Below, piece by piece: positions 4,196-43,464 of a stretch of DNA of 64,000 nucleotides. The position numbers and the translations under genes were made by a program. Under the pieces are notes generated by a model, which was given only the letters and a program-made list of their open reading frames with translations, did no database searches and was not told where the DNA came from. This DNA comes from Ilex aquifolium (taxonomy: Eukaryota > Streptophyta > Magnoliopsida > Aquifoliales > Aquifoliaceae): assembly GCA_951799425.1 (NCBI GenBank), contig OX637395.1, forward strand, positions 3,138,001 to 3,202,000. Reading direction: 5' to 3'. The first letter of the stretch is position 1, and the number at the start of each line of letters is the position of its first letter.

Positions 4196-5538
4196 TCCGG
4201 TTAGAAAGACAGATTATAAGCATCTGCTTTACACAACACATGGCAGCTCTAGCCTTTGCCGGCCCTTTTAGCCTCCTAAGGCCGGAAAAAGAAAACAAAT
4301 GAATAATACACTTTTGAATTGGTAGGGACAAAAATGAATTAGTGTAAACATCTTAGATGCCCTTAAACTTTGAAATGAGTTCCATCTATCTATCAAATTT
4401 TGTTCTTAAACCCTTAAAAACTCAGCAATCAACATGTATCGTCCAACACTCCCATCAGAACAAATAAAAAAGACAAAAAATAGAAATGTAGGAGACAACT
4501 TGAAACACAAATATCGTAGTGGACTTTTCGCTTTTTTGAATAGACAAAAAAGTGAAAAAGATTGATTATCATTTTTAAAGTTTAAAGCATGAAAATTAGT
4601 GCCAAAGTTTGCATGACATTGTGCCAAAGTTTGAATCGAAACGTTAAAGATTGTATTAAGAAGATAAATCTGAAAGAAAAGATGACGACAAGAAATCTGG
4701 TGCCAATTCTTCCCAAACATCAACATTTTCACCACATCTAACCTTTCTAGACAGTTGGTGAACTATACAATTTCCTGATCGTCTATAAGTGGACAAAAGA
4801 CAAAAAAAAAAAACAAGCGAATAACGTGTTGAACATTTGCAACAATAGTGCCTAAATGGGAGAAATCCCCAGAGTTATCAAGAATCCTTATATTAGACTT
4901 CCTTAAAAGTCTCTCAGAAACTTTCTAAATTGCTGAAACAGTTTCAACAATGCCACAAAACAACATATGATGCACTTCTCACAAGACATGAACTCTTAAA
5001 AAAACTTCATGGCAGGAATTTTCCAATCTTGAGCAGCAAACACAACCAATATCGAGTTTCTCACTGACATGACCTGATTTGTTCAACCTCAGAGTGGCTT
5101 CAATGTCAATGTAGAACCAATTCGCCAGAGAAGATTCGTCAGCGCGGAAGAACCAAGCATCAACTGATCAGCAGGCTGGCATAAGAACTCACCAAGGCAA
5201 GTGACGCTTCTGAAATATTACCATTGATGTATTTAGGCTGCATTAGACATTCTCAAAAGTGGCAAAATCTCTTGCTCCCTCCTCTAATCTATCCATCACG
5301 ATGACACAAAAGCATATGGTACCAATGAATTCATAGAAATAGTAAATGAACACAATATTTGGACTAAGTTGATAATGAAGCTACAAAAGGATACACAATC
5401 AAGCATATAACTTGCTTTATTTAAATGTGCAAACACGTCGCTGGAATTTTTATATTGCCTTCTTCCTTACAGAAAATAAGGACACAACAGAGAGACGAAG
5501 AAGAAAAAAAAAGTTTCAATCACAAATGTCACAATGGA

Positions 5539-8096
5539 CTAGATAAAACCCTGTTCTTTGCAGCATTGAATTGCTCCATCGTACATATCTTCAAGTCTAT
5601 GTTTAAACTTGAAACCAGTATCCAAGAGTTTTTTTGATGATAGGCCATTAAATTTATCCCCTTTGATCTCCTTTAAGCATCTGCAAAATGAAAAAATTGG
5701 TGGTGACTTGCATATTTTTCTTACTAGGAGAAAAGATGTAGAGAAGAAAAATAGACTTAAAGACATACTCGACAGTTGGCATTTGATATTCGGGGTATCT
5801 GGATGAAAGAAATTCAGCCATCTCATGAATTGTGATATCGACTGCTGAACATATATATCTTCCTTTCGCATTAGGATATTCAAGAAGGAAAATATGTGCA
5901 CTGGCCACATCGTCTACATGAACCAAAGATGTACCCACAAGAAAACTATAGCGGTCCTTGTCACCTGCACAAATTAAATATATCATAAAGAGAAAATCAA
6001 ACGCACCATTCTAAAAGGCTATTTAGAGTAAGATTTAAAGGCCTTATTTGACCGTATCTAAAAATGCTTAGGTTAATTTGCAGACTGTTGCGATAAGGTT
6101 CACCTAGGCCTCATTCTTCAACAGTCTAAATCTCCCTCTTCTTTATCATATCTGAATCAGATAACTGGGAACTAAACAAGTTATAGCAAGATGCAGCTAA
6201 AAGGCATGAGAAAATCTGTATCACTGCATGTGCTTTCACCCATTACATCTATCAGTTTACAACATTTTTGAACCATAATTGTTTGTGATGAGCAACACAT
6301 ACCAAAAATCATAGCCATTGACGTGCGCACTGAACCAGGCAAACGAGGACAAATGAAGGGGCCATGGATAAGAGCAGGAATGACGGTCACAAGATCCAAT
6401 CCATTTTCTTCAGCAAACTCTAAAGCAGCTCTTTCTGTTAATGTCTTGGTAATCGTGTACGAAGCTCCAACAACTTTTAGATCTCTAAGAAAATCTACAT
6501 CAGTCCATGTGCTTTCATCAATTACATCTAAACCCTTGTTGTGACCAAAAACAGTGGATGCACTAGAAGTACACACAACTCGTTTAACTGTCTTTGATTC
6601 AAGGCATGCCTTTAAAATGCCTAGTGTCCCATTGATGGCTCTTTTGGTCTTTGTTTCTTCTGTTTCCTTGTCCCCAAAATCCATGGGGTGAGCAACATGA
6701 AACACTCCAACGCATCCTGCAATTGCTGCATCAAAACTGTCTGGGATATCGAGATCTGCATTGAAAATCTGGAGTCTTTCTGATGCGCCTGGTAAGTTTG
6801 TGAGGAAGCTAATGTCTTTCTTCTTGTCTGGCAATACACAAACTGTTACTAATATCTGATCATACAATTCAGTACTTAGCCACAATACAAACTGGATTGA
6901 AACTCCGTTTTGTAGGAGACAAAGCTGGAAAATCTAAAATTTTTCTTTCCTAAATTTGTGGTAACTGATTATTTCGTAGACAGTTCAAGTAATAACACAC
7001 AGGCAAGCTAAAATCATGACCCTCATTGCTTTAAAACCCAAATTCTTCACCCAACCAAATATGACAGTCTTGCCTTTCACCTTTACTAGTGTTGGCCCCA
7101 TGCATCGCACGGAAATTGCACATATGTTCATCTACCTTTCCCTTCTTTTTTTTTTTCAATTGTCATCATACCATTAAAAAAAAATTAGGGTGATAAACTA
7201 ATTATGTAAAGTTATGGTGGTGAAACTATGTTCCTTAAAAAATTTAAATTAGTGGCTCATTTTTAAAAAAAAAATTGAATGAGTGATAGTTAATTAGTGG
7301 GGTAGAGGGGTAGTTAGATGAGACATATATTAGAACATAATTGGTTAAGTGATAATTAAATAATTGAAAATCCTAAGAAAAGAACAAAGTGGGAGGGAAG
7401 GCTTTTGAACCCACCTCCCACCTAATATGATTGTTTTATAGTATAGTAAGATTTCTAGTCTCCTAATACATACAAATAATACCATTAAAACAATTCTCAA
7501 TTATATTAAGTACTACGGCCTAATTATATTTTAAATGGTTAAAATGTTAAATATTCCTCCTATCATCGAGAACTACTGTCTATGGCATTTCATCAAACAT
7601 CTAATATACTAATCAAATATCCTACCCATTCAAATATATTCAAAATTTCTTAATATACAATTTTCATTCGATTATGGAGGATCTGGCATTTTATCAATCA
7701 TCTATCACTCTAATAAAATATTTACCAACTCAAAACCAACCATAATAAATTATTTATCAAGTAAACAAAATCATATTGCAACATTTCTATGATGACAATT
7801 AAAAAGAATTGTTTTTTTCTTTCTCGATAGCCTAATTTATTAAGATCATGTTCGTGGGTTAACCTGGTATTGAATTTAAATTCTAATGTCAACCCACAAG
7901 TTGACTAGAAGAACAAATGAGAAACTATGAATCATAGAGGAATGGGTTTTCTGGATTGGAGAAGATGATGAAGTTACCTGGATCGAACCTAGTTGTAGTG
8001 TGGACAGAATAACCTTGTTGAAGAAGCTTCATAATCAGCCATGAAGCTACAAAACCTGTTCCACCAGTTACACATACAGGTCCCTTCCTATGTCCT

Positions 8097-9479: not shown

Positions 9480-11299
9480 TAATAATTTAAAATTATTTAT
9501 ATTAAGATAAATAAGAGTTAAAAAAACTTACTTACCAAAAAAATGAGTTAAAAAAAACTTCTTAAGCCATCTCAATTAAAAATAATGATTTTATAAATAT
9601 AGACAAACAAAAATTCAAAACAAAAAGAGGCAAAAAAACTTCTCATTGTTAAGGTATATTTTGAACCCTCTTAGTTATATATATCTCACACTACCTCTTG
9701 AATTATCACATTTCTTATATCTGAACTTCAATTATTATTTTTGATTTTACATCATTCATACCCAATAGAGAAGACGGATGCTAAATCAATAGATGTAAAT
9801 TGGTTGAACCCTTAACACGGAGAGTAATTCTAAGAATTTAATTTGGAGATTTAATTCAATAAAATTGGTGTATGAGTTTAATATTGGATAATTTTCAGTT
9901 TTCACTTTCAATGCCGCAGTTGTATTTCATTAAATCGTCAAATAAAGTTTAAATAATATTTTCCTAAGACAAATGAGTACTTGCTTTACTTCGCCATCAA
10001 GACTTATGTAGCCCTGTAGTTTCTCTTTACAATATCAAATAAATAGACGAAGATCAAGACTACATGTGAGGGATAGAACAAAATTGGATCATAATAAACA
10101 CTACATTACCAATGAGTCCTCCTACCCTTCAAAAAAAGAGGCCCTTTATGAGTAATTTTAATTAGATTTAATTTATTGGCATAATATCACACTGTCTTGG
10201 ATTTTTAATGAATCTCAATGTTAGAGGTGATATATTATCAATCAAGGCATAATAATAAATTAAACTCCGAGGGGGTCAGTTTAGTGGTAGCTTAACTATA
10301 TGATAAATCTTTCATGAGGGATAAGCCAGATATTCAAATATCTCACGAAACGTAGTTATTTGAGACCACCATCCATAGATTTGTCCATTTTGTAGAGAGA
10401 CGATTTTATACAAGCTTCAACATTAACCCAGTACATGAGCGGAAAAATAATGCGGTGATCTATTGAGACAGTTGGAATATAAAAAAAAAAAAAACACAAT
10501 ACGTTAGATCAATAAATTATGTTCAAACAACATTATTGATAAGTCAAATTCTATAATTAAACTAAAAGTTGAAGTATAGTTTGAAGGATTGTTCGAAGTA
10601 AATCAAATATATTTTTATTGTGGTTCCAAATGTTGTTTCTTTCAAATTTTAAACGGATTAAATTGACGGACAACAGTGATTGAAACATGAAAGTACCATT
10701 ACACCCTCCATCTTATACATTATTTCTCATTTTTTTCTTTAAATACTAATTTTATCCCTAAAAAAAAGTCAAAAAAAAAAAAAACATCTGTTCAACCCAA
10801 CACAACATACTGCACCAAAACATGTTCGCCTTTGCCAGCACCCTCCACCTCCACCCAACACGAACACACACTTTTTAAGGGTAATTGTGTCTTTTAAATA
10901 AATTATGCATCATGTAAATTTCTGATGTCTAATTTACGTCATGTTTTATGATCTAAAATTAATTGTTGGAGTTAATTACAAAACTATTCAAACTTTAAAA
11001 GGACTTTTTGTTAAAATTAAAATCTGAAAGGCCGAATGACAATCTACCCAAAGTTATAGAGGGTATTTTGTAATTAACCCATTTTTATTTTATGGTTTTG
11101 TTACGTATGTGATGACTACTGCAAATCAATTTCAATTTGTATACACAAATATATAATCAAGTTTTTTATTATATAAACCAATTCAGGTCTTATGTTCCAA
11201 TAATTTGAGATTAGCTATATGAGTCTGTATTTGTCATTCATTTTGGTTATGCGCTATCCACTTATTTAAATAAGTTTTTTATTATTTAGATATTTATAA
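9480..11299. other. Gene-free AT-rich region
   Basis: No credible coding exon. A small inverted-repeat element at about 10968-11081 has ends GAGTTAATTACAAAA and, inverted, GGGTTAATTACAAAA. A stretch at 10276-10290 (TCAGTTTAGTGGTAG) resembles a pol III A-box, but no matching B-box was found. The rest is unassigned. Confidence 0.5.
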
Positions 11300-12372
11300 G
11301 GGTTAATTGCATTAGAGGTTCCTAAATTATAGAGTTCGTCTCATTTTAGTCTCAAATGTTTCAATTGCATCATTTTGGTCCCTGAAGTATTGAACATATT
11401 TCTATATGGTCCTCCAAGCAAACAACATCCAGATTGCTAACAATTTTTTATCATAATCTTGTCACGTAATAGCTAAATATAGACAAAAAAATTTGTAATA
11501 TGAGTAGTTTTTTACAAAAAATTGGATATCTCATTATCAAAACTGTATAATTTAGATAAATATTTAACCAAAATTTGAGTAAAAATTTAGTCAGGAGTTA
11601 TCCAAATTATTTTTTTTATCTATATTTAAGTATCATGTGACAAATTTATAATAAAGAAATTGCTAAAAAATTGGACACTGTCTGTTTGAGGGACCATATA
11701 GAAACACTAGTTATTGTCTGTGCCTGAAGGCACAATATAATAAAAAATGGTAAACAATAAACATATTTGTATTCATACCCAAAATCAAATCATAAACATA
11801 GAGAAGAGATAAAGAAATTTAAGCATCGATTTGTAGTGGAGATGAGAGGTGGTGGGCGGTAGTAGTGGTGGTAAGAGACGGTGATAGTTGTGGTGGGTGA
11901 CAATGACTGTGGTGGCGGTGATGGCGGCAGCGGTGGTGGTGGTGGTGGCAGCAGCGGCGGCGACGACGACGATGGTGACGGCGGCGGCAATGGTGGTGGA
12001 GGCGGTGGTGGTGGTGAGGGTAGAGGTAGTGGTGAGGCGGTTTCAAACACTATTATTTTTTTTTAAAGTATTTATGAGAAATAATTTCTAGAAGTACTTT
12101 TAAAAAATCACTTCAAACACACTCTTAGGGCTCTATTTTTCGTATTAAATTTAGGGTGTTAATATTAGTCGTTAGATTAACTTTAAAATAAAATTTAAAT
12201 CGATCTCAACCGCGAATAGCAAAAGTCATTTTGTTTATCTTTTGAGATTTGAATTGTAAGCTACTTTATTATATAGATATTTAATATTTTCGGGACTAAA
12301 ATGATACAATTGAAACATTAGAGACCAAAATAAAATATACTCTATACTTCATGACCTTCAATACAATTAAGT
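11300..12372. mobile_element. Long-arm foldback element carrying a nested Helitron
   Basis: Inverted arms of roughly 90 bases: the left arm begins TTAATTGCATTAGAGG and includes ATGTTTCAATTGCATCATTT; the right arm inverted begins TTAATTGTATTGAAGG and includes ATGTTTCAATTGTATCATTT. Without the Helitron at 11707-12277 the element is about 500 bp. A piece of the same family without the Helitron lies at about 37028-37187. Terminal motif and arm structure resemble Mutator-like foldback MITEs, but no target duplication was confirmed. Confidence 0.75.
11707..12277 (-). mobile_element. Non-autonomous Helitron, GGN-rich family, copy 1
   Basis: Minus-strand element, 571 bp. It starts TCTATATAATAAAGTAGC after a host A and ends with hairpin TGTGCC-TTCA-GGCACA, then GACAATAACTAG before a host T. 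The middle (about 11835-12045) is a GGT/GGC-rich triplet tract giving long but meaningless Gly or Pro frames. The relative at 37080/37081 shows the unoccupied site. A second copy of the family is at about 31800-32409. Confidence 0.85.
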
Positions 12373-12747
12373 GTACTTATAATAAAATTATACATTTATA
12401 TACAAATGACCCTCTAGATGGTCACCGAGTCATGAGCAAAGAACAAAGAAAGAACTTTCCTATTATAAAAGTAGTTGTCAAAAACTTGCAACTTAGACCA
12501 ACCCCCATTAATAATATGCTTTCCCCATTTAACCCACATAATCTAATCACCCCTTTTCCCTCTCTCCCTCTCTCTCTCTCTGTCTCTCTCCCCATGGAGT
12601 CGATACTCCCTACCAGGAATTCATAAACCCTCAAGAAAACCGAAACAATTACAAAAACCCATTTGAGAAAGTCAGACACTGGTAAAAGAATAGGAAATTG
12701 AGAAAAAAACAGTTCTTTTTGGGTTTGATTGTTGTTGTTATTGGAGT

Positions 12748-21800: not shown

Positions 21801-23046
21801 AACAGTTTGTGTATTGCCCAGACAAGAAGAAGGATATTAGCTTCCTCACCAACTTACCTGGCGCAACAGAAAGACTACAAATTTTCAATGCAGATCTCTA
21901 TATTCCAGGCAGTTTTGATGCAGCAATTGCGGGATGCATTGGAGTGTTTCATGTTGCTTTTCCCATGGATTTTGAGGACAACGAAACAGAAGAAACAAAG
22001 ACCAAAAGAGCCATTGATGGGACACTAAGCATTTTAAAGGCATGCCTTGAATCAAAGACAGTTAAACGAGTTGTGTGTACTTCTAGTGCATCCACTGTTT
22101 TTGGTCAAAACACTGGTTTAGATGTAATTGATGAAAGCACATGGACTGATGTAGATTTTGTTAGAGCTCTAAAAGTTGTTGGAACTTCATACACGATTGC
22201 CAAGACATCAATTGAAAGAGCAGCTTTAGAGTTTGCTGAAAAACATGGATTGGATCTCGTGACCGTAATTCCTCCTTTTATCCATGGCCCCTTCATCTGT
22301 CCTCGTTTGCCAGACTCGGTGCGCTCATCAATGGCTATGATTTTTGGTATGTTTTGTTTCTCATGACAAATAATTATGATATCTTTAGTTGCATGTTGCT
22401 GTAACTTCTTTAGGTCGCAATTATCTGATTCATTTATTTTCTGAAGTTGAGACAGATTTAGACTATTGAAGATCGAGGTCTGGGTAAACTGCATCAGAGC
22501 AGTTTACGAAATTTCCATTAGCATTCTTAGATACAATCAAATATGGCCTATAAATCTTACTGTAAATGGCCATTTAAAAAGGTTACTTCAATTTTATCTT
22601 CAGAAAATTTATAATTTTGCAGGTGATAAGGACCAGTACAATTATCTCGTTAATACAACTTTGGCGCATGTAGACGACGTGGCCAGTGCACATATTTTCC
22701 TTCTTGAAAATCCTGATGCAAAAGGAAGGTACATATGCGCAGCAGTCGAAATAACAATTCAAGAGATGGCTAAATTTCTTTCATCCAGATACCCTGAATA
22801 TCAAATTCCAACTGCCGAGTAAGTATTGAACTCTATTTTTCTTATCTTAAGTTTGCTTTTCTTTGTCAGAAAATATTCAATTCACCTCCATTTTTAATTT
22901 ACAGTTGTTTAAAGGAGATCAAAGGGATTAAATTTCCGGGCCTCTCGTCAAAAAAACTCCTGGATATTGGGTTCAAGTATAAGCATGGCCTTGAGGATAT
23001 GTACGATGGAGCAATTCAATGCTGCAAACAAAAGGGTTTTCTCTAG
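18865..23046 (+). CDS. Vestitone reductase/DFR-like NADPH-dependent reductase, paralogue 2
   Basis: Same SDR family and likely reaction class as the gene at 5539-8101. Exons 18865-18991, 21822-22346, 22623-22818 and 22905-23046 sum to 990 bases (329 aa). Exons 2, 3 and 4 are exactly the same length as in paralogue 1 (525, 196, 142); exon 1 is one codon longer. Rossmann [17 protein letters not shown] and the YTIAK catalytic pair are all retained. Changes cluster around the likely substrate pocket (for example VAFPMDF versus VAHPMDF, and IPPFIHG versus IPALIHG), so substrate or activity may differ. This is inference. Intron 1 is 2.8 kb and has collected extra sequence. A TATA-like box and a GA-rich leader precede the start. 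The two genes are divergent, with PAT between them. Confidence 0.9.
19100..21800. other. Large intron 1 of reductase 2 with unassigned inserts
   Basis: This is 1.7 kb longer than the matching intron of reductase 1. It holds hAT-like GTCGTGTC fragments (about 19150-19400) and AT-rich DNA (19600-20100). A CCA-rich patch at about 20160-20290 looks like the 5' end of a gene but gives no frame. A 125-codon minus-strand open frame at 21130-21507 has no family I recognise. Confidence 0.5.
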
Positions 23047-31489: not shown

Positions 31490-32695
31490 CCTAATGCTCC
31501 GTTTGGTAGTAGGAGGGATACATTTTGTATCTTTTAAGGAAGAAAAATAAGAATGATACACTTTTCATTCTTTGTATTTGATTGGATGGATGAAAAATAT
31601 AAATGACTAATTTTTTTTTTTTTGTGCTGGCTAAGATTAAGGGTGACAATCGAGTCGTGTCGTGTTAGATTCGTGTTGAGTCATTACGGATTTGTGTCGA
31701 ACATTAGTCAAACCTAACTCAATTCATTTAACTAATTGTGTCGTGTCGAATTGCGAGTTGACCTGTTTATTTTTATTTTTTTATTTTTTATTTTAAAAAC
31801 ATATACAATTCAAATTTCAAAAGATAAACAAAATGACTTTTGTTATTCGCGGTTGAGATTACTTTAAATTTTACTTTAAAATTAATTTAACGGTTAATAT
31901 TAACACCCTAAATTTAATAGAAAAAATAAGGCCCTAAGGGTGTGTTTGAAGTGATTTTTTAAAAATACTACTAGAAATTATTTCTCATAAGTATTTTAAA
32001 AAAATAATAGTATTTAAAACTGTCATACCACTACCTCTACCACCACCACCATCGCCACCTCTACCACCACCACCATCGCCGCCGCCACCACCACTGTTGC
32101 CGTCGCCACCACCACTGTTGCCGTCATCGCCGACCTCACCGCCACCATCACCATCATTACCACCGTCGTCGCCACCACCACCATCATCGCTGCCCTCGCC
32201 GCCACCACAGTGATTGTCACCCACCACAACCATCACTGTCTCCTACCACCACCATTGCCGCCCACCACCTCTCACCCCACTACAAACCGATGGTTAAATT
32301 TCTTTATCTCTTCTCTATATTTGTGATTTGATTTTGGATATGAATACAAATATACTTATTGTTTACCATTTTTTATTACACTGTGTCATCAGACACAGAC
32401 AATAACTAGTAAATACATATTTTATCATTGTATTTTTATATGAAATTAATGTATATATTAAAAAATATATAGACAAATAAGATACATCTCAACACAAATA
32501 ATTAACTTTCCATCCACTTTCCTTCCGATTTTAAAGAGATTGATTTTAGTGAGTTGGAAGGAAAGTTAATCTATCCACTTTTTCATCCTTCCTACTTTCC
32601 TTCCTTACCAAACATGATGTTTTATCGATCCCTCCCACTTTTCATCCTTCTAACTTTTCATCCTTCCATTTTTTCATCGTACCAAACGGAACATA
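31490..32695. mobile_element. Nested repeat block between DUF1442 and RPS13
   Basis: The outer ends form a short inverted repeat: CTCCGTTTGGTA (about 31498) and TACCAAACGGAA (about 32680). Inside are a GTCGTGTCGTGTT hAT-like fragment (31640-31770) and the second GGN-rich Helitron (31800-32409). The outer pair could be one interrupted MITE; this is inference from the ends alone. Confidence 0.45.
31800..32409 (+). mobile_element. Non-autonomous Helitron, GGN-rich family, copy 2 (5' end eroded)
   Basis: Plus-strand copy of the element at 11707-12277: shared CAATTCAAATTTC-like start, AGATAAACAAAATGACTTTT, a CCN-rich triplet tract (about 32025-32280), AAATTTCTTTATCTCTTCTC, and the 3' end. The terminus is a perfect hairpin CTGTGTCATCAGACACAG (32381-32398), then ACAATAACTAG and host T. 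The TC start is not recognisable. Confidence 0.8.
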
Positions 32696-37027: not shown

Positions 37028-37187
37028 TTAAAAAATTGTTCAAATTTGACGTTGTCTGTTTGAATGATCATATAGAAACATATTAAATACTTTATGGACT
37101 AAAATGATATAATTAAAACATTGAGGGATTAAAATAAGACAAATTTCATATTTTGGAGACCTCCAGTGTAATTAACCCTAAATTTAA
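37028..37187. mobile_element. Foldback-element fragment with the empty Helitron site
   Basis: Matches the right half of the foldback at 11300-12372 (TTGTCTGTTTGA, CATATAGAAACA, ACTAAAATGATATAATTAAA, GTGTAATTAACCCTAA). Where the other copy is split by the Helitron, this one reads continuously GAAACA|TATTAAAT at 37080/37081. Confidence 0.75.
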
Positions 37188-37668: not shown

Positions 37669-40600
37669 TTAGGTAGGAAAATTAAGGTTACAATCGGATA
37701 ACAAAGAAGCCTTAAGCTCGGGAGGGGGGGTGCCTAACCAATTCAAAGGAATGGAATTGGTTAGAAAATTTGCAGCCACCCAATGAGCAGTCCTATTACA
37801 GGCTCTCGGCTTGTGTAAAAAGCGAAGGTTACGTAACCTTGCCAAAAATCTAATATCATCCATAATTACACAAAGTTCCCATGGGGAACATTTTCAGTTG
37901 AGCTTAACTGAATAACGGAAAGACAATCATTCATAATAATACAATTTGAGAGCATGAGTGAGTCGGCCAAAAGGCAGGCTTGACGAACCGCCTCAGCTTC
38001 AGCCATCAGAGGAGAACCAGCGAAGAACGACCTGGCAACACCATCCAAAAGAGAGCCATCCGCCTGGGTAACCACCACCCCACAGGCTGCCTTCTTCTCT
38101 TTAGACAAAAAGGAACCATCACAGCAGATCAAGACATCAGGAGCATGGATAGAGGATTGAGTCATAGAAAACAAGGGAGAACCAGTTTGAGAGGGGGAAA
38201 TATTTGCTAGTCTAAACTGATCAGACCACATACTTTGGGCCCGAACCACAGACGCAAAGGCCTCAACCTCCACAACCTCAAAAACCATATGATTCCTAGC
38301 CTTTCAAATAACCCAGCCCACAGTAGCAACTTTCTCCAATAATTCCAGTCTCCCCTGTGCATCATCAATCTGTTCTAAAATCCAGGAGGAGCGCTGCAAG
38401 ACAGAGAGAAAGGAAGTCGTATCCCATCTAAAGGACAAGTTCATGCCAAACCAAACACGCTGCGTCCAATCACACTCAAATAACATGTGTTCAACTGACT
38501 CAGGAAGCTGCCTACAAACGGGACAGAGAGAAGACTGAGAGCACCTCCGCTTGGATAAATTCTCTTGCGTGGCCAAAATATTCTGACAAGCTCTCCACCA
38601 AAAGTGCTTGATCTTAGGCAAAGCCTTCATATTCCAAACACACTGCCATAACTTAGGGTGAGGGGAGACAGATGAGCCGCATTCCATCGAAGTCCCAAGC
38701 AGCTTGAAACCCCTTCGATAGCCAGATTTAACAGAGAACACACCCTTACGGTCAGGCCACCAAATACGTTTATCATCCATCCCCCTCCTCGACAAAGGAA
38801 TGACGCCAATAGCTTTAGAGTCCTCACTTGAAACAATAGAGGTCAAAAGAGAAGCGTTCCATCCAGGAGGATTCAGAGAAATAACCTCAGCCACTTTAGA
38901 AATCTGGGCATTCAGGGGTTTAGGAGTTCGAACAGAAAGAGAAGGGGACAAGGGGATCCATTTATCAGACCAAAAGTTGACATTGCTCCCATTACCAATT
39001 TGCCACATTAAACCGCTGTCAAGAAGAACCCTGCCATGAAGAAGACTGGTCCAACCCCAGGAGGGTCTGTTACCCCGCTTCGCCTGCATCATATCATCAT
39101 CAGGGAAATATATAGCTTTTGTGAATTGCGCCCAGAATGAGTCAGGCTGAGAAATAAGACGCCAACATTGCTTAGCCAATAAGGCTTGATTGAATAAGAA
39201 GAAGTCTTTGAACCCAAGCCCCCCAGCAGCCTTCGAATCAGTCATTCTCGACCATTTTTTCCAACAAATGCCATTCCTCGCTTCAGATCCCTGCCACCAG
39301 AAATTTCGAACCAAGGCATTCAGTTTATTGCAAAAACTCTTAGGGAAAGCCACCACTGACATTGCATAGTTGGGGATAGCTTGGATCACCGCCTTGACCA
39401 GCACCTCTTTGCCAGCCTGTGAGAGACAAGATCCTTTCCATCCTTGAAGCTTCTTACGCACCCTCTCCAAAATAAAGCCAAAAACTTCACTTCTAGAACG
39501 ACCCCACATTGAGGGAATTCCCAAGTATCTAGCTTGGTGAGGGAGAGGTTGCAAACCCAGAAGATGACAAAGAAAGGCTTTTTGTTCAACAGAAGCATTG
39601 GCAGAGAAAATAATACCAGATTTGGAAAGATTAGCACTTTGGCCTGAAGCCAAACAGTAGGACTGAAGAATACGGATAAACTCCCTAATACCACATTCCT
39701 GGGCTTTGATGAAAAATAGAGAATCATCCGCGAAAAAAAGATGAGAGATGACCGGGCTTCTCCTCCGGATTTTAATTCCCAAAAGACATCTATCTTCCAC
39801 TCCTCTTCTAATCATTGACGAGAAGACATCAGCAACAAAAAGGAACAGGTAGGGGGACAAAGGATCACCTTGGCGAATTCCCCTTTGAGGAGTGATTTCA
39901 CAAACTCGAACCCCGTTAAGTACCACCTGATACGTCACCGAGGAAACACAACTCATAACAAGATCCACCCAACTCCTAGCAAAGCCCATAGAAATCATCG
40001 TGGCCTCCAAAAAGTCCCATTCGACTCTGTCATAGGCCTTGCTAATATCCAATTTAATTGCCACTTCGGGAACCCTGCCACGCTTCTTGCCTTTCAAGTG
40101 ATGGAAAACTTCGTTGGCAATGAAAATACAATCCTGGATCTGTCGATGAGGGATAAAGGCAGCTTGATTAGGAGACACAATAGAGCCCAGCAGGACCTTC
40201 AATCTATTAGCCATGACCTTAGAGATCACTTTGTACACAAAATTGCATAAAGCAATAGGTCTGAATTGCGATAAACTCTCTGGTGCCTCCTCCTTTGGAA
40301 TCAGAACAATATGAGTGTGGTTAAGACCAGTGGGAAGATGGCCTCCTTCAAAAAAAGCCTTGACCAAAAGGAACACATCATGCCCCACGATATGCCAAAA
40401 ATGATGGAAAAAAATCCCTGGAAAACCATCCGGTCCCGGAGCTTTTAGAGCTCCCAATTCAGAAACTGCTTTCCAAACTTCAGAAGTGGAAAGCTCCCGA
40501 AGAAGGCTCTGGTTCATCTCATGAGTAACAGTAGACTGGACAGAATGCAATGCTTCATCCCAGTTGCGTTCCCCAGCAGTAGAGAAAAGTTCCTGAAAGT

Positions 40601-41792
40601 AAGCTTGAATATGTGAAGAAATGTCCTCATCCCCTTCAATCCATTCAGTCTCATTTGTCTTCAGTTTGAGGATAAGGTTTCGGTTGCGTCGCTGAAGGGT
40701 AGATAGGTGAAAAAACCTCGTATTCTCATCCCCCCCTTTGAGCCAGTTAATTCTGGAGCGTTGCATCAAAAATTGCTCTTCTCTACCTCTGATCGTATCA
40801 AGTTGTGAGCAAAGACTAGCCTCTCTTAACAAGTTCGCCTCAGATGGAGAAAGGGTCTGAACATAAGATAACTCACTTTCAAGCTCCCGAATAAGCTTCC
40901 TATTATTACCAAACTTATGTCTACTCCAAGAAAGCAAACCCCTTTCACAAAGCGCCAGATTTGATGAAACCGTGAGGATAGGCAGACCAGATCGGTTATG
41001 CACCCGATTCCTCTTAATCACCTCTTCACACTCAGCATCATCCAACCACATGCTTTCAAATTTGAAATAAAAAGGTCTCTTTCGGGAAGGCTCCCCAAAT
41101 TCAACCACAATGGGACAGTGATCCGACCCCATTCGGGCCTCATGAGTCACCTAGGTGTGAGGGAAGACATCATACCATTCTGAGTTAACCAAGGCTCTAT
41201 CTAGACGTTCCTGCACATTTGCAGCACCTGGTCTATTATTAGACCAAGTGAACCTAGGGCCACCAAATCCCAACTCCAACAAACAACAATCCGAGATAAG
41301 ACTCTGCAACTCCTCAACTTTCTTGTAGGAAGAAGGAAAACCCCCTACCTTATCAGTTAAAGAGCTAATGACATTAAAATCCCCCAAAACCAACCAGGGG
41401 CAATCAACCACCCTAGCCATTTCCTTGAGAGTCCCCCAAGTATGTTGACGCTTTTCGAATTTTGGATCCCCATAAATAAACGAGCATTGCCACATCCGTG
41501 CCTGCTGAGAGAAACTGCAGCGAATAGTGATAAGATTGCTATTCTGTTCAGTAATCCGTAAGCTAAGATCATTATTCCACCACAAAGCCAAGCCCCCTGA
41601 GAGGCCCACCGGATCAATATATTCACCAAATTGGAAATGCAAGGATCTTCTCAATCGATCCAACTTATGGAATTTATTTTTGGTTTCCATAAGAAAGACG
41701 ATTGAGGGGCGATGGGTATCAATTAACCCTCGTAAGTACCGGACTGTCCGGGGTCGCCCCACTCCCTGACAGTTCCAAGAGATGACTAGCAT
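37669..41792 (-). pseudogene. LINE ORF2: endonuclease, reverse transcriptase, RNase H (broken)
   Basis: An apurinic-type endonuclease domain (VISWNCQGVGRPRT, ETK, WLVLGDFNVI, GSDHCPIV) is followed by reverse transcriptase (ILIPKEE, QFRPIALCN, FADDSLFF) and a zinc-binding zf-RVT segment (CPVCRQLPESVEHMLFEC). Last is a plant-type RNase H (ICCDGSF, AEAEAVRQA, IMNDCLSVIQ). Damage: an in-frame TAG at 41151-41153 inside the endonuclease, an in-frame TGA at 38304-38306 between zf-RVT and RNase H, and a frameshift at about 37870-37885. The fragment at 47084-47340 keeps the frame at that last position. An original element would have encoded one protein of about 1,370 residues. Confidence 0.93.
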
Positions 41793-43464
41793 GAGTGGTG
41801 TGGCTGTTTGAGGTCAGCCACCACCACCTTTGTTTGTGGACAGATTGACATTTCCGCCTCAGATAAATTATAAGAAGGCTGCGAAAACCAGTGAGAATCA
41901 CTCCGATTGACATAATTTTCCCCCTTGCCTTCCTGAACTTCCTCTTCTGCTCCTGCTTGTTGGTAATGCCCTTGAGGCTCTGGTTCCTGAACATGCGCAA
42001 AAAAGAACTCGGATTTGGATTGAACATGTGCCCTCCTATGAGCCCTGTTGTTGTGTTTCTTGGGTCGGGATTTAGGGGAAGGTTTATTTCTTGGAGCTTG
42101 GATGGAAAGGTTTAGGGGCAGTGGATGCGCAAGCGGGGACGGTACTGGAGAGGGCTCTTGTGGGGAAAAAAATTGAATGCCTTTGTTTCTTTTTCGACGT
42201 AGTGACTGAACTTCCTCTGCATCAGATTCAGATTGGGCTTTTCGTTTCAAAGACATGTGTTGGAAAAAAACTTCCACTTGGTCTCCTTCTTCCTGACTTC
42301 CTTTATTCGTACTAGCCTGCACCTCCTTAGCTTCCACCGCTTGAGCCTCAAAACTATCATTTGGTTCGATAACAAAATAGGATCCTCTTTGCACTGCTAC
42401 CAGCATACCAGAATCCTCTTTAGGGACTGAATGAGGAGGGCTAGGATCACAGTCATTAATCCCACCCATAAAGGGCACCACCATAAGGGGAGGGGTATTA
42501 AAATCAGAATCACTCATCTGAGTTTGCACACGAGCAGCAGGGCTATCAGCCGGAGTTCCTTGTGGGTTCCCCATAGGGGCATCACTATCAAGAATATTTC
42601 CCTTATTTGGAGGTGTGATTGGGTTTGGAGTAACCTGGACCGAAGGATCAACCTCCACACGTGTCTCATGAAGCTTTCCTTTAAGTTTCTCCTTTTTCTC
42701 CATACTCTCTCGAGCCTTGAGAGACCAGGTCTCTCTGAAGAAACCCGAAGAAGAAGCACTTGATGCTCGTAATTCAGGGCCAAACTGGCATTTGGGACCT
42801 AGGGTACCTCTGTCTTTACATTGACTTTGAGCATGACCTATTCGACCACAAAGATAGCAGAAATCCGAGAGTCGTTCATACTGTAAAGTAATCCAAATAT
42901 CATCCTGATTATCCCTAGCCAGAAAAAAACCCCTCTTGAGTGGTTCCTGAAGGTCGATCCTACACTTAACCCGAAGGAAATTACGCTGGAATTGAACCTC
43001 CCCATCCACATCCTCCAACTGGGTCGGATCGCCAATCAGTCTCCCAATCCTCCATGCGTTGTTTTTAGTCATCATATCAAGAGGAAGCCCCCGGATTTGC
43101 ACCCAAAACTCAGAATAGTGAAATTTGAAGTCACTAATGATACTCTGAGGCTGATAGGGTTTTAAGACTAGAAGCGCTCCCATGACAGACCAAGGACCCT
43201 CATGCAAAACTTCATTTTATCACTCTCATCTTTGAACATGAACATATACGTGTTCCGTTCCCAGTATGTGATGGAAAAGCCCTTTGAGGTTTTCCAAGAG
43301 TTTTGTAGAACATTACACACTCCCTGTCTGTTGAGATTAGTGGTGGTGAAGAAACGACCCACAAGACAGAATTTTTCGACATTTTGGACAGTAGAAGGAT
43401 TCGAAAATAGGGATATTCGAGGAGGAGGAGTGGAGTACGAATCAGCTTCGGTTTCTTGTGCCAT
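41786..43464 (-). pseudogene. LINE ORF1: gag-like DUF4283/zinc-knuckle protein (frameshifted)
   Basis: RNA-binding gag-like protein of plant L1 elements. The first part (43464-43168) begins MAQETEADSYSTPPPRISLF and carries the DUF4283-like region up to MFMFKDESDKMKF. A single-base loss at about 43195-43205 moves the rest into the next frame, which runs from about 43207 to 41786. That part contains the rest of DUF4283 (EFWVQIRGLPLDMM, RGFFLARDNQDDIWI) and the zinc knuckle CYLCGRIGHAQSQC (CX2CX4HX4C). A long low-complexity tail with basic clusters follows. Confidence 0.88.

Follow-up and report, generated by a model that had tools for sequence, protein, structure and literature searches.

The window, by which we mean the whole 64,000-nucleotide stretch that was analysed (C5:3138001-3202000), contains a Helitron that very probably inserted at a strongly preferred target: an A|T dinucleotide in one arm of a foldback element, where the preference is one-sided and extends over about 12 bp. 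The evidence strongly supports repeated use of this dinucleotide, both by the window Helitron and by others. The structure of the insertion, its recurrence through the genome and the one-sidedness of the target signal are demonstrated. A Helitron inserted in a foldback is, taken alone, ordinary; what deserves pursuit is the hotspot, together with the one-sided signal.

In the available text of the reports that we cite, the preference of Helitrons past the AT dinucleotide is poorly defined, with AT-richness alone reported. A natural hotspot with empty copies, base variants and insertions in both orientations amounts to a mutagenesis experiment already carried out on the target. It makes the target choice of the transposase testable in existing Helitron assays, and it offers an alternative to rolling-circle concatemers as an account of Helitron arrays.

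The Helitron, its host and the empty site

The features on which the argument depends are these, in window coordinates:

11291..11299, no strand: left 9-bp target duplication of the foldback, TATTTATAA, 8/9 identical to 12374-12382
11300..11706, plus strand: foldback, comprising the left arm, the middle and the inner right arm, to GAAACA
11707..12277, minus strand: non-autonomous Helitron, 571 bp, with exact junctions and relatives in the genome
11707..11710, minus strand: Helitron 3' terminus, CTAG
11719..11734, minus strand: 3' terminal hairpin TGTGCC-TTCA-GGCACA, 12 nt before the 3' end
12276..12277, minus strand: Helitron 5' terminus, TC (GA on the plus strand)
12278..12373, plus strand: outer part of the foldback right arm, from TATTTAAT
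12374..12382, no strand: right 9-bp target duplication of the foldback, TACTTATAA, one mismatch to the left copy
31804..32409, plus strand: second copy of the window Helitron family, about 80% identical
37029..37179, plus strand: truncated paralogue of a foldback arm, reading through GAAACA|TATTAAAT at 37080/37081

Canonical Helitrons are described, in the portions of the reports available, as having a TC 5' end, a CTRR 3' end and a hairpin about 10-12 nt ahead of the latter, and as inserting between A and T without duplication (PMC4778049, PMC13286980, PMC4683698). The window element has all of these features. Read on the minus strand, it starts with TCTATATAATAAAG and ends with AATAACTAG, so that its termini are TC...CTAG, and its 3' portion runs GTGCCTTCAGGCAC-AGACAATAA-CTAG. 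The hairpin, at the canonical distance from the 3' end, has a 6-bp stem (-5.5 kcal/mol, z -2.9), and 5 of 200 shuffled sequences fold equally well or better. The boundaries are exact: ...GAAACA (to 11706) | CTAG...TATAGA (11707-12277) | TATTTAAT (12278 on). The sequence-only reading had described a foldback split after GAAACA and resumed at 12278, with a 571-bp Helitron, TC to CTAG on the minus strand, lying between A and T without target duplication; each of these particulars is borne out by the letters, and no duplication is visible at the junction. By its structural marks the element at 11707-12277 is a canonical Helitron, with termini, hairpin and A|T insertion like those given for Helraiser/Helibat of bats, Xuan-Feng of wheat and Mothra of rice, as far as the available accounts of these elements go.

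The middle of the Helitron is rich in GGT/CAC triplets, and no stop-to-stop open reading frame of at least 150 amino acids overlaps the element or lies within 11300-12373. The element was inserted at A|T in the right arm of the foldback, presumably by a rolling-circle transposase supplied from another element. The triplet-rich middle (11838-12035 in the window) differs in length from copy to copy among the relatives.

We searched the genome (800 Mb in 103 contigs) with the insert and obtained 5,732 first-look candidates; scoring 40 of these gave 84 matches. The 18-base 3' end alone, with at most two mismatches, occurs at 5,225 places, compared with 5 for the reversed control. After removal of duplicate loci (L004, L007, L008, L030 and L031), T follows the 3' end in 60/60 cases of a first set, and T likewise follows in 100/100 of a second set, for which the 100 exact 3' ends at the head of the listing were taken (all on C1-C3). 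In the first set, A precedes all 32 of the non-tandem 5' ends that were counted, namely those starting at TC, 5' ends with another start having been left out. The TC and CTAG termini are common to many relatives, with TC or CTAG altered in some. The second copy in the window has CTAG at 32406-32409, followed by T, and lacks about 20 bp at its 5' end. Two copies on different contigs (L024 and L016) have diverged by 0.9%. Their closeness is a hint of recent movement, and Helitron activity may thus be fairly recent.

The host is a foldback whose inverted arms (11315-11404 and 12270-12359) are 90 nt long and 76% complementary. It has the long inverted repeats, without coding capacity, of a MULE-type MITE. 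We fetched 30 related loci (L046-L075) that resemble the foldback in its left part. Both ends were found in 25, of which 22 are 479-504 bp long, and the longer three (L046, which is the window copy, L050 and L055) have Helitron sequence at the site. Since the query stopped at the site, this sample is enriched for elements interrupted there; two of its loci (L058 and L059) are apparently one duplicated locus. A 9-bp duplication with at most one mismatch flanks 18 of the 25 two-ended foldbacks and is absent from 7, in a scoring that accepted offsets of up to three bases and so helped chance matches in A+T-rich DNA. The length of the duplication leads us to name the foldback a putative MULE-type MITE; known MULE-type MITEs and foldbacks with 9-bp duplications share both that feature and the long inverted arms. 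These mostly 9-bp duplications of the related foldbacks, like the recurrent use of one foldback position as a Helitron target, go beyond what had been seen in the sequence-only reading.

That reading had also pointed to an unoccupied target site at 37 kb. When the joined flanks are aligned with 37042-37137 they are 83% identical over 96 columns; the one gap is located away from the junction, and the 37-kb sequence reads straight through 37080/37081. However, the 37-kb piece is a truncated paralogue of roughly one arm. It is therefore a related empty site and not the same locus before insertion. A second read-through copy, which had gone unmentioned, is provided by the left arm of the foldback itself, whose reverse complement aligns across the junction. 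Filled and unfilled states are thus represented by three sequences inside one window. It could be supposed that the 37-kb copy is empty because it lost a Helitron, and putative excisions of rice Mothra Helitrons have been reported in the accessible part of one study (PMC4683698). We find this barely credible: the uninterrupted form is the common one, as judged from 1,802 empty-site places in the genome and from the foldback's own left arm, and the measured foldbacks are 479-504 bp long in 22 of 25 cases.

Recurrent use of one foldback position

Two loci that had been fetched for their Helitron only (L035 and L045) proved to have it at this very position of a foldback belonging to the same family. 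The filled junction is described by a pattern of 16 foldback bases plus CTAGTTATTG, allowing at most three mismatches. The genome-wide search for filled and empty copies finds 89 places for this pattern and 1,802 for a 26-base version of the empty site under the same mismatch limit, and none for the reversed control of either. Twenty of the 89 were fetched (all those listed on C1 and C3, plus L095 on C6, picked for its different Helitron end), and 19 of these lie inside the foldback, the exception being L093. By comparison, another A|T of this arm, about 20 bp distant and used as a control, yields 0 filled and 1,868 unfilled places (Fisher p ~1e-27).

It is important to ask whether such a pattern could arise by chance insertion at A|T, with no preference past A+T richness. 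Helitrons are indeed described, in the available text, as favouring AT within AT-rich DNA (PMC4778049). Under uniform use of A|T, however, we expect about 0.07 same-orientation hits at this site and find 89, an enrichment of about 1,400-fold; both estimates are rough, because the counts come from differing patterns and the frequency of AT was taken from the window. The target signal described below also survives comparison with A+T-matched sites. Chance insertion is for these reasons extremely improbable. The recurrence at one position suggests that landing sites are chosen by a signal longer than two letters.

Alternatively, the foldback might draw Helitrons by its structure, its inverted arms extruding or melting, rather than by local sequence. 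HUH-type transposases work on single strands, which lends this idea some appeal, and the site is present in both arms. The melting of AT has been discussed for Helitron transposition (PMC4778049, in the text available). Against it, a neighbouring A|T in the same arm has 0 filled and 1,868 empty places; the one-sided signal is equally visible at ordinary sites; and one locus (L028) has TGTTCTATATGG adjoining CTAG without any foldback match. We regard a purely structural explanation as unlikely and prefer preference for the local sequence.

A further question is how many insertions the filled copies represent. A single Helitron might have entered one foldback and then been copied along with it. 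Some observations agree with this: L001, L035 and L045 have the same arm and the same relative orientation, and the number of private states shared is 18 for L035 and L045 (99th percentile of pairs) and 14 for L001 and L035 (95th percentile), although for L001 and L045 it is at the 66th percentile, no more than usual. In addition, the hotspot label is more clustered on the tree of Helitron copies than in shuffles (14 changes versus 19.6, with 1 of 500 shuffles as low); hence some filled foldbacks may descend from one insertion.

Four lines of evidence weigh against a single insertion. First, both orientations occur at the same dinucleotide. A longer, stricter pattern finds the opposite orientation at 21 places; seven such loci were fetched, of which four show both junctions (L096, in the left arm, L099, L100 and L102) and three the 5' junction only (L097, L098 and L101). 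Second, L096 has both arms of one foldback filled, with an exact flanking duplication, TAAAATTTA. Third, unrelated Helitron bodies occupy the hotspot: L078 and L095 have a common body, with 87% identity across 781 aligned columns, the body of L081 is yet another, and L086 has only 57 bp at the 3' end in common with the window family, all four being represented by 3' parts, with 5' ends not found in the fetched stretch. Fourth, the AU test rejects a tree in which the 19 hotspot copies are constrained to a single clade (p 0.0025), and likewise for the 15 main-orientation copies (p 0.0004). The AU test presupposes groups named before the tree was seen, and the copies compared here were chosen in different ways; the tree of 70 copies is itself poorly resolved, with 4 of its 66 inner branches starred. 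Four loci (L002, L009, L034 and L093) have a hotspot-like flank outside a foldback; they were labelled as hotspot in the clustering test and removed for the AU test.

Several independent insertions at the hotspot are thus needed, and some filled copies may share one ancestral insertion. Copying of a single insertion is contradicted for the whole set and could apply to subsets; as an account of the hotspot we judge it very unlikely. The composite spread of one Helitron-bearing foldback is ruled out for the whole set by the opposite orientation, the double-arm and other-body insertions, and the AU test.

Some hotspot loci have peculiar ends. In L096 (230-240) a hotspot Helitron ends in CTAA instead of CTAG, at the same A|T. 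In L098 and L101 the opposite-orientation Helitron 5' end is TCTATATAATAAA, with no listed match to the window Helitron body. L076 (C1:42707725-42708951) has TGTTTC on both sides of its hotspot Helitron, and at its 5' junction ATTGAATATGTTTC is followed by TATATAATAAAG, as if the host's TCTATAT had been fused with the Helitron 5' end.

The target signal around A|T

In order to describe the signal at Helitron targets in general, we compare them with a background of 16,621 A|T sites from the same loci, used for both sets of targets. The first set comprises 33 non-tandem sites, L035 and L045 being left out. On the 3' side, A at +2, A at +8 and T at +9 each occur in 26 of 33, and A at +10 in 30 of 33 (p 9e-10); on the 5' side the signal is confined to positions 2 and 3 (p 1e-3 and 8e-6). 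When the site in the window and two possible Helitron remnants are set aside, +10 A stands at 27/30. The second set comprises 69 of the 100 sampled ends, after removal of 28 tandem ends and 3 others (sites already used, apart from one, the foldback site L135, which is the only one of the 100 3' ends located at the foldback site), and at least one of the 69 is a slightly altered Helitron 5' end. Here +8 A and +9 T each occur in 50/69 and +10 A in 57/69. Over both sets, +10 A is found in 84 of 99, and the signal is roughly A|TATATNTATATA in general and A|TGTTTCTATATGG in the foldback. Most of the preference is contained in about 12 bp that adjoin the Helitron 3' end after insertion, and +10 A is its most constrained position.

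The signal exceeds what A+T content provides. TATA at +7 to +10 occurs in 34 of the 69 second-set sites, compared with a mean of 7.4 and a maximum of 16 in matched samples; when (TA)n targets are excluded it occurs in 17 of 52 (matched mean 4.5, maximum 10). Furthermore, a matrix built from the first set, without the foldback sites, distinguishes the second set from the background A|T sites with an AUC of 0.91, or 0.77 after A+T matching.

Applied to the 134 half-sites of an empty foldback, the matrix ranks the left-arm hotspot 1st and the occupied right-arm one 3rd. The half-site ranked 2nd has 4 filled places with at most three mismatches, filled copies being the only ones counted, and a low-ranked control half-site has 0. 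The occupied half-site falls in the top 1.3% of A|T sites by the matrix. Since this is far below the rough 1,400-fold enrichment, the sequence of 12 bp is not the whole story.

The foldbacks themselves vary at the most constrained position: a variant with CACATAG in place of CATATAG puts G at +10 in the main orientation, and the exact G-form 16-mer occurs 167 times in the genome. Among filled sites, +10 G is found in 2 of 91 in the main orientation, as against 11 of 21 in the opposite one (p 4e-8). The 91 consist of the 89 junction places (0 with G) and 2 more from a pattern favouring G (2 among 72); one of these two exceptions, L055, was retrieved and proved genuine. The strength of the comparison with empty arms depends on which arms are taken. 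In those near the window copy, +10 G occurs in 28/53 (30/57 by a looser rule); under the same mismatch filter it occurs in 5/22 (p 0.003 against 2/91); in the empty arms of L076-L102 it occurs in 5/24 (p 0.004 against filled sites) and in those of L001-L045 in 0/5. The opposite-orientation value of 11/21 exceeds the baseline from filtered and other-loci arms together, 10/46 (p 0.02). A preference for A at +10 is well supported; its size varies with the baseline.

These observations can be set beside what has been described for other Helitrons, as far as the accessible text of each source extends. Helraiser favours surroundings that are AT-rich over about 20 bp, chiefly 3' of the site (PMC4778049); a wheat family shows an AT preference (PMC13286980); and in rice the 3' flanks are markedly A+T rich, while maize flanks have no consensus beyond A (PMC2575219). 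For canonical Helitrons such accounts give AT and AT-richness only, whereas here the signal is one-sided, spans 12 bp and is dominated by +10 A, and about a hundred junctions fall at a single position of one repeat family. Among the matches listed from text searches of the open-licence literature, we found neither a defined 12-bp Helitron target signal nor a MITE hotspot.

Head-to-tail arrays and a proposed resemblance of targets to the Helitron 5' end

In about 28 of the 100 Helitron 3' ends sampled, the 5' end of another Helitron follows directly or after a few bases, and the rule used missed one more. A junction of the form CTAG|TCTATATAATAAAG, with at most three mismatches, occurs at 914 places in the genome (control 0). 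Six loci (L009, L010, L013, L014, L016 and L019) are arrays of at least three head-to-tail copies, and in several arrays the copies are linked by 2-6 extra bases of the TCTA/TATA type.

The 5' end of a resident Helitron, A|TCTATATAATAAAG, and the foldback target, A|TGTTTCTATATGG, both carry TCTATAT, either at the cut or 4 nt on. This common element is the origin of our proposal that a target is read like the Helitron's own 5' end. The transposase would cut at A|T when a mimic of the Helitron 5' terminus follows, either immediately or about 4 nt further on. It would thereby treat the target as if it were its own 5' end, A|TCTATATAATAAAG. Head-to-tail junctions would be the outcome wherever a resident Helitron is entered at its A|TC, so the same reading would also account for many head-to-tail arrays. 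The data suggest, without proof, that targets are chosen in much the way in which a Helitron's own 5' end is recognised. The stronger version, in which that recognition guides targeting and makes recurrent landing pads of 5'-mimic foldbacks and resident 5' ends alike, is possible and in our judgement somewhat doubtful.

Strict imitation of the 5' end was considered and rejected: TCTATAT is found in few targets, and most targets are no more than TA-alternating. At offsets 0-5 it is found in 5 of the 99 other targets, compared with 0.02-0.05% of background sites per offset (7/102 when the site in the window and the two possible remnants are included), and in the second set it is found in 1/69. 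This result makes targeting guided by the 5' end slightly less likely than it had seemed.

Arrays might instead be rolling-circle concatemers of one template, in which case they would tell us nothing about target choice. Helraiser circles make precise junctions of 3' to 5' ends, and tandem arrays in plants and bats have been cited in support of rolling circles (PMC4778049, PMC5876387, in the text available). For Fusarium, the accessible part of a report on FoHeli describes a Helitron inserted 2 bp upstream of the 5' end of another and, for a triple copy, weighs 5'-end insertion against rolling-circle replication (PMC5148889). The head-to-tail junctions found here are like those of the tandem arrays and self-insertions described in such accounts of plants, bats and Fusarium. 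The 18 within-array pairs are, however, no more alike than other pairs (private-state sharing 0.202 versus 0.198) and are slightly more divergent (0.140 versus 0.116). This speaks against simple one-template concatemers, which we think improbable while leaving them an appreciable chance. That neighbours here are no more related than other copies also sets these arrays apart from the known ones and favours serial insertion.

The order of insertion within arrays is not established by divergence. At 32 junctions the upstream copy is the less diverged in 19 and the more diverged in 12, and at the 23 junctions that have both ends of both copies the figures are 15 and 8.

The window contains other elements besides, and its genes together with a LINE suggest that the DNA is that of a plant. 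The LINE lies in pieces on the minus strand between 38304 and 43216:

38304-41150, minus strand: LINE reverse transcriptase with zf-RVT
41786-43216, minus strand: LINE upstream open reading frame with DUF4283 and a zinc knuckle

An NAD-dependent epimerase/reductase gene is represented by two pieces (6181-6933 and 21803-22366), much alike by eye, which lie on opposite strands about 15 kb apart.
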